Shown here in pieces: positions 44,202-45,311 of a DNA stretch of 64,000 bases. Below the pieces are notes generated by a model. It made no database searches, was not told the origin of the DNA, and worked only from the letters and a program-made list of their open reading frames with translations. Both the position numbers and the translations under genes were made by a program. How positions within the stretch are numbered: the stretch's first letter is position 1; each line of letters begins with the position of its first letter. Source of the DNA: Thiolapillus brandeum (GTDB taxonomy: Bacteria; Pseudomonadota; Gammaproteobacteria; Chromatiales; Chromatiaceae); assembly GCF_000828615.1 (NCBI RefSeq), contig NZ_AP012273.1, positions 868,001 to 932,000 on the forward strand, given 5' to 3'.

Positions 44202-44278
44202 ATTTCATGCCGGATTCCTTGGTGCGGAATTCGCAACATAGATGCGCCCGTAGCTCATTTGGATAGAGCATCGGCCTT

Positions 44279-44941
44279 TAGGCGCGTACTCTGGTGACAA
44301 GTACGCATTAGGAGCCTTCATGGGGAAACGGAACCCATGAAGTGGATCGCACCGTATCGGGGAAACCTTAACAGGTTATGCTGATGGCAATCCCGAGGAA
44401 ACCTTTGGTTGACCCGTCCAATGCTCTGGAATAGCATTTGTGCTATGCACCATACAAAGGATAAGGGCGACCTGGGTGTTTTAAAGGCTCAACTCGATTT
44501 ATTCGAGCAGGGATTTCTTATATTGAATCCCGTAACCGAACATGCTCCATTTGATTTGGTGGGGTATAGAGGCAAGACGTTTGTAAGAATACAGGTCAAG
44601 TACAAGTCGGTTGATCGAACTGGAAGCATGACGGTTCATTTTCGCTCCAGCTGGACGGATAAGAATGGAACGCACATGCGGCAGGTAGATAAGGATGAGG
44701 TTGACCTCTACTGCATTTACTGTCCGGACACCGATGAATGCTATTACCTTGATCCAAAAAATTACAATCGTTCGGTTACATTGAGGGTAGAAGCACCCAA
44801 GAATAATCAAGCCAGGAATGTCAAACTGGCCAGGGATTTTCGAAGGGTTCCGTAGAGACTATACGTGCGACACCTGAGACGGTGAAGAGATAGTCCAGAC
44901 CACAAACCTGCGTGCAGGGCGTCGAAAGGCGTAGTGGTAAG
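44279..44941 (+). ncRNA. Group I self-splicing intron in the tRNA-Arg anticodon loop
   Basis: 663 nt. The upstream exon ends in U and the intron ends in G, as group I splicing requires. P1 can form between exon CUU and GAG in AGGAGCC, with a hairpin (GCGTACT/AGTACGC) in its loop. A 9-bp stem CTTCATGGG/CCCATGAAG follows. Core elements: AATCCCGAGGAAA (P/Q-like), P7 GACTA (44857-44861) with TAGTC (44891-44895), P8 CACC/GGTG between them and a P9 domain with a GAAA tetraloop. The arrangement fits tRNA-type IC3 introns. Confidence 0.88.
44445..44855 (+). CDS. Intron-encoded PD-(D/E)XK homing endonuclease (I-Ssp6803I-like)
   Basis: 136 residues from the ATG at 44445; an ATG at 44421 would add eight. 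The sequence HTKDKGDLGVLKAQLDLFEQG at the start and the catalytic set Asp in HAPFDLVGY plus IQVKYK match the group I intron-associated PD-(D/E)XK family (PDDEXK_5 type), whose known member I-Ssp6803I homes into an intronless cyanobacterial tRNA gene. It lies in a peripheral loop of the intron, and its stop codon (44853-44855) sits immediately before the P7 strand. Codon use is plainer and more AT-rich than in neighbouring genes. Confidence 0.88.
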   Translation: MHHTKDKGDLGVLKAQLDLFEQGFLILNPVTEHAPFDLVGYRGKTFVRIQVKYKSVDRTGSMTVHFRSSWTDKNGTHMRQVDKDEVDLYCIYCPDTDECYYLDPKNYNRSVTLRVEAPKNNQARNVKLARDFRRVP

Positions 44942-44965
44942 CTAAGCCGAGGGTAGCAGGTTCGA

Positions 44966-45311
44966 ATCCTGCCGGGCGTGCCAAATGAGTGGGTATTCCA
45001 GGGAGCTGGAAAGTACCCTGATGGGCAGGATTCGAACCTGCGTCATCAAATAGCAAGGTTCGACTGGTTTGCGTAGCAAGCCAGCACCGTGCGTAGCACG
45101 GCCCCGCAGGGGGAGTCCGTCAGGACGATCATCCTGCCGGGCGTGCCAAATGAGTGGGTATTCCAGGGAGCTGGAAAGTACCCTGATGGGCAGGATTCGA
45201 ACCTGCGTCATCAAACAGCAAGGTTCGACTGGTTTGCGTAGCAAGCCAGCACCGTGCGTAGCACGGCCCCGCAGGGGGAGTCCGTCAGGACGATCATCCT
45301 GCCGGGCGTGC
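44966..45311 (+). repeat. Two 165-bp tandem units bounded by copies of the tRNA-Arg 3' end
   Basis: ATCCTGCCGGGCGTGC, the last part of tRNA-Arg, occurs at 44966, 45131 and 45296 (exactly 165 bp apart). The two units between are identical except for one T/C change near 45050/45215. Each unit has a run of mini-hairpins: TTCCAG-GGAG-CTGGAA; an inverted T-arm-like GCAGGATTCGAACCTGC; GGTTTGC-GTA-GCAAGCC; CCGTGC-GTA-GCACGG; CCCC-GCA-GGGG; and GTCC-GTCA-GGAC. No gene is credible here. Confidence 0.9.

Follow-up and report, generated by a model that had tools for sequence, protein, structure and literature searches.

A probably mobile group I intron with a putative I-Ssp6803I-type endonuclease gene splits the anticodon of tRNA-Arg(UCU) in Thiolapillus brandeum

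The tRNA-Arg(UCU) gene of Thiolapillus brandeum is interrupted within its anticodon. From the anatomy of the insert and the family of the protein that it encodes, we conclude that it is most likely a mobile group I intron that encodes an I-Ssp6803I-type homing endonuclease, and we give this reading, with its implied splicing and homing, a probability of roughly 87%. The gene lies in a stretch of 64,000 nucleotides (contig NZ_AP012273.1, positions 868,001 to 932,000), called the window here, and all coordinates refer to it. The split gene has three parts:

44244-44278, + strand: 5' exon of tRNA-Arg(UCU), bases 1-35 of the joined 77-nt gene (to tRNA position 34), ending in CUU; ARAGORN with introns allowed, 100% match to bases 1-35
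44279-44941, + strand: group I intron, 663 nt, ending in G (omega-G); ARAGORN and covariation over 60 introns
44942-44983, + strand: 3' exon of tRNA-Arg(UCU), starting with CUAA (positions 35-38), CCA encoded; ARAGORN and match to the joined gene

When introns are allowed, ARAGORN places a tRNA-Arg(tct) gene at 44244-44983, interrupted after base 35 by 663 nt of intron, and joining its exons gives a complete cloverleaf with the loop CTTCTAA. Run without introns, the program finds only tRNA-Pro(TGG) and tRNA-His(GTG) in the window and no tRNA-Arg(UCU). The insertion point lies between tRNA positions 34 and 35, inside the anticodon. The initial annotation of this DNA had proposed an intron-split anticodon of tRNA-Arg(TCT), with the break at 34/35, a U closing the upstream exon, and a G closing the intron; the ARAGORN result and the window sequence bear this out. 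It had overlooked the endonuclease open reading frame (ORF) that fills most of the intron.

The genome appears to rely on this gene. A tRNA model finds 36 intact tRNA genes in the organism's own assembly, those with the Arg anticodons ACG, CCG, and CCT included and none with TCT. A BLAST search of the joined gene against the same assembly finds its two halves and nothing else at full length and identity, with no second copy. The initial annotation's question of whether another tRNA-Arg(TCT) exists is thus answered in the negative by both searches, for an assembly that is perhaps incomplete. It comprises 3.15 Mb in 3 contigs and is listed as 100% complete. tRNA-Ile(GAT) and tRNA-Ala(TGC) are also missing from its tRNA list, and a 16S rRNA search, which also misses 5 of 14 control genomes, finds nothing in it; the rRNA operon is perhaps masked or missing. 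Given these gaps, a stretch that is masked or missing could still hold a second tRNA-Arg(UCU). AGA codons are present in three of four long ORFs counted nearby. Since these codons are in use, the split gene should be needed, and with no other tRNA-Arg(UCU) gene found, its splicing should be required to decode AGA. Bacterial genomes that seemingly lack an AGA tRNA can therefore have one that is invisible to standard searches.

The 3' side of the gene has a feature of its own, a 165-bp tandem repeat of 2.1 copies at 44966-45311, each unit of which ends with the tRNA's own 3' end. The unit resembles RtT RNA (RF00391; 33.1 and 32.9 bits, cut-off 45). One same-genus genome (G001) has a single RtT-like unit (L067:490-629, 34.6 bits) without a tandem array.

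The intron can be folded into a group I core; group IC3 is the subgroup label for bacterial tRNA introns. The elements that make up the fold are these:

44308-44311, + strand: UUAG, P10 candidate that could pair with CUAA of the 3' exon; read from the sequence
44311-44316, + strand: internal guide GGAGCC, forming P1 with 5' exon GGCCUU (44273-44278), one mismatch and a U.G pair at the splice site; read from the sequence
44347-44352, + strand: P3 5' strand UCGCAC, partner 44865-44870 (GUGCGA); 360 of 360 cells paired, double-sided changes in 5 of 6 pairs
44357-44396, + strand: P4 enclosing P5, 44357-44361 with 44392-44396; 99.7% of 300 cells paired, double-sided changes in 2 of 5 pairs
44397-44407, + strand: P6 5' strand, partner 44841-44851; the endonuclease ORF occupies the P6 loop, and its end forms this partner strand
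44857-44895, + strand: P7 (44857-44862 with 44890-44895), P3 3' strand (44865-44870), and P8 (44871-44874 with 44881-44884)
44899-44938, + strand: P9 (44899-44903 with 44934-44938), P9.1 (44907-44910 with 44915-44918), and P9.2 with a GAAA loop (44920-44923 with 44928-44931)

These helices were drawn from the window's own sequence and then tested on 60 introns with both exons in place. Across P3-P8, including P5 and P6, 1595 of 1620 cells are paired and 142 are changed on both sides, counts that overstate independence because rows are sequences rather than events and the helices are window-derived. Double-sided changes occur in 8 of 9 pairs of P2 (98.7% of cells paired), 6 of 6 of P6a (92.1%), 4 of 4 of P9.1 (90.8%), and 4 of 4 of P9.2 (99.2%). 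P8 is 100% paired. P7 is paired in 96.9% of cells, and its GACTAT/ATAGTC becomes GGCCAT/ATGGTC in 7 of the 60 introns. Double changes in P2, P3, P4, P7, P8, and P9.2 lie above all 500 shuffles, and sliding the partner strand of these helices by 1-2 columns lowers pairing to 11-62%. P6 is paired in 95.0% of cells with double-sided changes in 1 of 4 pairs, a value reached by 1 of 500 shuffles. P9 is reached by 7 of 500 shuffles, and neither of these two helices varies enough to be very informative. In P1, 80.3% of cells are paired and double changes are absent, so that P1 and P10 are pairings read from the sequence without covariation support. Every intron end printed in the exon-pair scan is G; because the scan pattern itself contains the 5' U and the loop CTT|CTAA, these two are not independent evidence there. 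In sum, P2, P3, P4, P6a, P7, P8, P9.1, and P9.2 covary over 60 related introns. The initial annotation had recognized a group I intron with visible P7, P8, and P9 tetraloop, and the covarying core helices, with P7, P8, and the P9.2 GAAA hairpin among them, uphold both the class and the elements.

The initial annotation had also held that the lack of a group I model hit would count against this class, and for the window copy the Rfam model RF00028 indeed gives no match at the gathering threshold and none up to E = 5. Two ORF-less relatives are detected by the same model, L064 from the same family (36.1 bits, E 3.5e-7) and L171 (35.9 bits, E 2.3e-6), both below the cut-off of 50, yet two others, L157 and L185, are not listed up to E 0.01. 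Because two ORF-less introns are detected, the 411-nt ORF in the P6 loop is a likely cause of the miss in the window, although the two unlisted introns are ORF-less too. A covariance model of our own, built from the 3' part of 26 of these introns, also detects introns in tRNA-Met(CAT) genes of three genomes of one Nostoc genus; two of the three were run against RF00028 and score above the cut-off (55.5 and 58.8 bits). In these genomes (L202, L204, and L205), the group I intron in tRNA-Met(CAT) is 244 nt long and has no ORF, and a PF11645 gene lies 80-240 bp downstream, outside the intron, in the side-by-side state also seen at some tRNA-Arg(UCU) introns.

The ORF within the P6 loop is predicted to encode a homing endonuclease:

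44445-44855, + strand: homing endonuclease ORF, 136 codons from ATG; PD-(D/E)XK, I-Ssp6803I family; stop just 5' of P7; PF11645, AlphaFold, and 2OST match

The intron holds an open frame of 156 codons. The ATG at 44445 is conserved and yields 136 residues; a TTG start at 44409 would give a longer product. The product matches PF11645 with 133.9 bits (E 5.1e-39) against a curated cut-off of 26.1. An AlphaFold model built from a 35-row alignment has a mean pLDDT of 88, and the closest structures to it in the PDB are the four chains of 2OST (I-Ssp6803I), with a best TM of 0.79 at about 21% identity. D37 and Q50 are invariant in the 35-row alignment and K52 nearly so; they align here with 2OST and match the pattern D...QxK, which we take to be the I-Ssp6803I active site. 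Sequence and model thus point to a homing endonuclease of the I-Ssp6803I / PDDEXK_5 family, for which cleavage is inferred from the family. The last ORF codons, CGA AGG GTT CCG TAG, double as the 3' strand of P6. A hairpin is predicted at 44420-44450, over or beside the start codon, and also in the three relatives looked at, with a different stem sequence, which is suggestive only; the hairpin could possibly control translation.

These parts suggest a mechanism of splicing and homing. In the folded pre-tRNA, the 3' end of the 5' exon would pair with the internal guide to form P1. A guanosine bound at P7 would cut after U34, and the freed 5' exon would attack after the terminal G of the intron, joining the exons into an intact UCU anticodon loop. 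As judged from its family, the endonuclease encoded in the P6 loop should cut an intronless tRNA-Arg(UCU) at the anticodon, and repair of the cut gene would copy the intron in. A carrier would be protected, since the intron splits the target site. In a 2001 paper on I-Ssp6803I, the anticodon region is reportedly the target.

The precise empty sites expected of a mobile intron are found among 15 same-genus genomes, the organism's own included. Seven of them have an intact 77-nt gene that matches the joined exons at 99-100% identity, and 3 (G000, G001, and G008) have the split gene with its endonuclease; tRNA-Arg(UCU), intact or split, was not found in the other 5. The gene order Pro-Arg-His is common to the 3 split cases and to the 6 of 7 intact ones that were read. 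Because the intact genes match the joined exons and share the same tRNA-Pro and tRNA-His neighbors, the split in the window is more than chance. Nothing clearly indicates recent transfer of the intron within the genus: intron identities of 89.5 and 89.7% stand against 89.1 and 89.5% for a housekeeping gene, presumably that for serine hydroxymethyltransferase (GlyA) as named from its sequence, and G001 and G008 share 96.9% in the intron and 95.1% in this gene. On a nucleotide tree of that gene, for which 11 of 13 genomes gave a match and which is one gene with few rows, G004, which has no intron, clusters with G001 and G008 (bootstrap 90, not starred). The tree needs two intron gains or losses, and the starred branches alone force one. 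One old gain followed by precise loss fits the same-genus pattern equally well.

The endonuclease has relatives at the same tRNA gene in distant hosts. Scanning bacterial and archaeal genomes with protein patterns alone yielded 106 confirmed relatives, the best 80 of which were examined; two viral contigs and the two closest of 17 phage records were added, making 84. Among these close relatives, with near-copies included and phages represented by the closest two of 17, 83 are located at tRNA-Arg(UCU): 62 in an intron, 6 beside a split gene, and 15 beside an intact gene. This location was not forced by the search, because only protein patterns were searched. The exception, L139, is an endonuclease remnant with no recognized tRNA. 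All 62 in-intron cases belong to the 80; in 52 both exons were resolved at 34/35, and the other 10 were placed by ARAGORN or by eye (L082, L083, L092, L093, L094, L099, L115, L123, L125, and L134), several of them being cut by contig ends. ARAGORN labels of tRNA-Ser(gct), Ser(tga), Gln, Phe, or SeC for some relatives were rejected, since the exon-pair scan gives a CTT|CTAA split for each.

Several of these loci have peculiarities. In L083 and L092, which are MAG contigs, the intron and endonuclease are present and the 5' or 3' tRNA-Arg exon and the tRNA-Pro end are missing; the gaps are either real deletions or assembly faults. L125 and L134 (Ignavibacteria) have the same endonuclease family in a gene split, by eye, at 36/37 rather than 34/35. 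L094, titled Halobacteria archaeon, combines an endonuclease inside an intron with the tRNA order Arg-His-Lys-Leu seen in gammaproteobacterial relatives, and its archaeal label is probably a binning fault.

The free-standing copies take two forms. Six adjoin an intron-split gene (L118, L119, L126, L127, L130, and L157). Five are Bacillota endonucleases 100-215 bp downstream of a tRNA-Arg(UCU) split by an ORF-less intron of 287-292 nt. L157 is a viral contig with a terminase large subunit (PHROGs, E 1.9e-47), and its tRNA-Arg(UCU) has a 229-nt group I intron with the endonuclease 80 bp downstream. Its sister L158 has an intact, different tRNA-Arg(UCU) followed by a related endonuclease. At these two loci (L157:2620-3618 and L158:2848-3621) the closely related endonucleases have a longer C-terminus, and the L157 extension has weak HTH matches. 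Twelve of the 80 adjoin an intact tRNA-Arg(UCU) gene. Eight of these come from cyanobacteria, namely Nostoc and its relatives, at a distance of 73-75 bp. The others are L131, L117, which may be a binned phage fragment, L098, with the endonuclease upstream, and L135, with it on the opposite strand at 323 bp. In Synechococcus phage Sf-FR1 and Acinetobacter phage Herod, the endonuclease lies 79 and 24 bp, respectively, downstream of an intact tRNA-Arg(UCU).

More distant phage matches (H3-H17, 28.6-32.8% identity), which are outside the 84, do not adjoin tRNA-Arg(UCU) in any of the 10 of 15 examined. Other tRNA genes accompany distant phage PF11645 relatives: tRNA-Asn about 20 bp upstream in L160, L161, L162, L167, and L168, tRNA-Ser about 20 bp upstream in L166, and tRNA-Asp just downstream in L165. 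In L159, L163, and L164, also from phages, no tRNA was found within about 130 bp. The PF11645 family may be tied to tRNA genes in general. Plasmid records encode no relative at E up to 1e-3.

Introns in tRNA-Arg(UCU) are neither unique nor very rare in Gammaproteobacteria. The initial annotation had thought such an intron uncommon there, a view that does not hold up: at least 17 of 369 genomes, drawn evenly and with the organism's own included, have one, and excerpts of PMC4853749 describe putative introns already in print. The intron model matches 49 of the 369 genomes at E up to 1e-5. Thirty loci from 30 of these 49 genomes were inspected; the exon scan identified 17 as split tRNA-Arg(UCU), and ARAGORN placed others in tRNA-Leu(TAA) (six) and tRNA-Arg(CCT) (two). 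Four of the 17 match the endonuclease over at least 83 residues, and one (L184) matches over a 32-residue remnant.

The intron could instead be splicing-competent and now immobile, inherited vertically within the genus with a decaying endonuclease, its patchiness being mainly loss. The divergence of the intron, close to that of the housekeeping gene, is as this account would have it, and so are an ORF-less intron in the same family (G021), endonuclease ORFs broken by stops in 4 of the 62 in-intron relatives, and the lack of a full endonuclease match in 13 of the 17 tRNA-Arg(UCU) introns found by the class survey, the L184 remnant counted among them. We nevertheless consider it rather unlikely, since the window ORF is open over 136 codons with its catalytic residues kept and the same endonuclease lineage occupies the same site in several phyla.

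Two further accounts were considered. A dead, disrupted tRNA gene, with AGA read by another tRNA, would explain why a standard search without introns reports no tRNA-Arg(UCU) here, and the own assembly may lack some stretches in which the other tRNA could reside; but no other tRNA-Arg(UCU) was found in the genome, AGA codons are in use, and 7 same-genus genomes have an intact gene that agrees with the joined exons at 99-100% identity, all of which makes a dead copy very improbable. Many protein-spliced tRNA introns sit in the anticodon loop, usually at 37/38, and the location of the present insert in that loop is the point in favor of an archaeal or eukaryotic type of intron. The split at 34/35 rather than 37/38, the U before the intron and the G at its end, the covarying group I core, and an ORF that belongs to a homing endonuclease family of group I introns all contradict this explanation, and we give it the least credence of all. 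The mobile, endonuclease-armed group I intron is the reading that we retain.

The wider set of relatives bears on how such an intron and its endonuclease come together. Somewhat tentatively, we favor the view that the tRNA-Arg(UCU) anticodon is a long-term docking site of one PD-(D/E)XK lineage, which has been repeatedly paired with and unpaired from the intron, probably in both directions. The lineage occurs in three states: beside an intact gene in phages, Nostoc and relatives, and a planctomycete; beside an ORF-less intron in Bacillota and one phage contig; and inside the intron in Gammaproteobacteria, Bacteroidota, and others. On a quick tree of 87 proteins rooted on I-Ssp6803I, whose long branches and many open forks make the order unsure, all intron-borne rows fall in one main group. 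Phage Sf-FR1 with L117, plus L131 and L135, lies inside this group; phage Herod lies outside it, as does a cluster that joins cyanobacteria to L157 and L158. Free-standing L098 clusters with intron-borne L096 and L097 (SH-aLRT 95), and five free-standing Bacillota forms cluster with four intron-borne ones (83). With all five labels, the arrangement changes at least 11 times on the 87-protein tree, and the starred branches force fewer changes.

Remnants of the ORF in ORF-less introns bear on the direction of these changes. Five ORF-less Bacillota introns keep the ORF end, with an exact DYREVP-stop in three and one or two differences in L126 and L130. Among gammaproteobacterial ORF-less introns, L175 keeps FRRVP-stop and L184 a longer decayed remnant. 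In 11 of the 18 ORF-less introns printed, nothing is kept beyond what P6 requires. The P6 pairing itself preserves part of the ORF end, and only codons past the helix speak clearly. Because the last ORF codons are retained, the simplest reading of the sequences suggests that the ORF was once inside the five Bacillota introns.

A change of target as self-protection of free-standing copies is not supported. In Nostoc sp. T09 (L149), which has a free-standing endonuclease, the adjacent tRNA-Arg(UCU) is identical to that of 6 of 7 congeners (one Nostoc genus) without a relative there, three of the 7 (G402, G403, and G404) having distant relatives or fragments elsewhere. With the tRNA gene unchanged, anticodon cutting would hit the enzyme's own host, so the enzyme's target may instead be the flank or some other place. 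Free-standing and intron-borne forms need not have a common target.

The origin of intron-borne homing endonucleases is an old question, discussed in the sources consulted here chiefly for protein genes of phages. Papers of 2009 on collaborative homing are said to describe how a free-standing enzyme already aimed at the insertion site joins an intron. The tRNA-Arg(UCU) set, with three arrangements, one endonuclease lineage, and nearly one insertion site, makes the order of events and the cleavage site directly testable and is a further case for this idea. In an open-access library with few subscription papers, we recognized no report of PF11645 genes in or beside tRNA-Arg(UCU). The L157 contig indicates that a tRNA gene of a phage can also harbor an intron of this type, in contrast with the statement, in an excerpt of a 2014 review (PMC3984707), that all phage introns until then were in protein genes.

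Known examples of collaborative homing, as far as excerpts of the sources describe them, are F-CphI beside the intron-bearing psbA of cyanophage S-PM2 (PMC6083498) and the terL intron of phage ICP1 (PMC10448857). As in those systems, a free-standing endonuclease stands beside an intron-split gene in six relatives, although cleavage in these is predicted. The tRNA-Arg(UCU) set differs in involving tRNA genes, a PD-(D/E)XK enzyme, and bacteria as well as a phage contig, and in the window the collaborative arrangement is absent because the endonuclease gene is inside the intron. Phage T4 SegB, a free-standing GIY-YIG endonuclease encoded between tRNA-Arg and tRNA-Ile genes and listed as cutting a tRNA intergenic region (PMC2988022, in excerpt), is likewise a free-standing homing endonuclease in a phage tRNA cluster adjoining tRNA-Arg; it differs in nuclease family, in its intergenic target, and in having no intron.

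Within Gammaproteobacteria, the closest precedents are the putative group I introns in tRNA-Arg-TCT of the giant sulfur bacteria BOGUAY ('Maribeggiatoa') and Thiomargarita nelsonii Bud S10, according to excerpts of PMC4853749, where MacGregor 2013a is cited. The same tRNA gene is interrupted there and is likewise absent from standard annotation. With a total span of 324 bases, the Thiomargarita gene leaves no room for an endonuclease ORF as long as that in the window, and the introns there are described in the excerpts as putative group I introns, whereas the helices of the window intron are worked out here. The Synechocystis PCC 6803 tRNA-fMet group I intron with I-Ssp6803I, of 655 nt and with a 150-codon ORF (PMC1995217, in excerpt), resembles the window intron in being a group I intron of similar size in a tRNA gene and in encoding a PD-(D/E)XK endonuclease of the same fold. 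In the window, by contrast, the tRNA is Arg-UCU, the split is at 34/35, the endonuclease is about 21% identical over the fold match, and the host is gammaproteobacterial, with close endonuclease relatives in several phyla and in phages.
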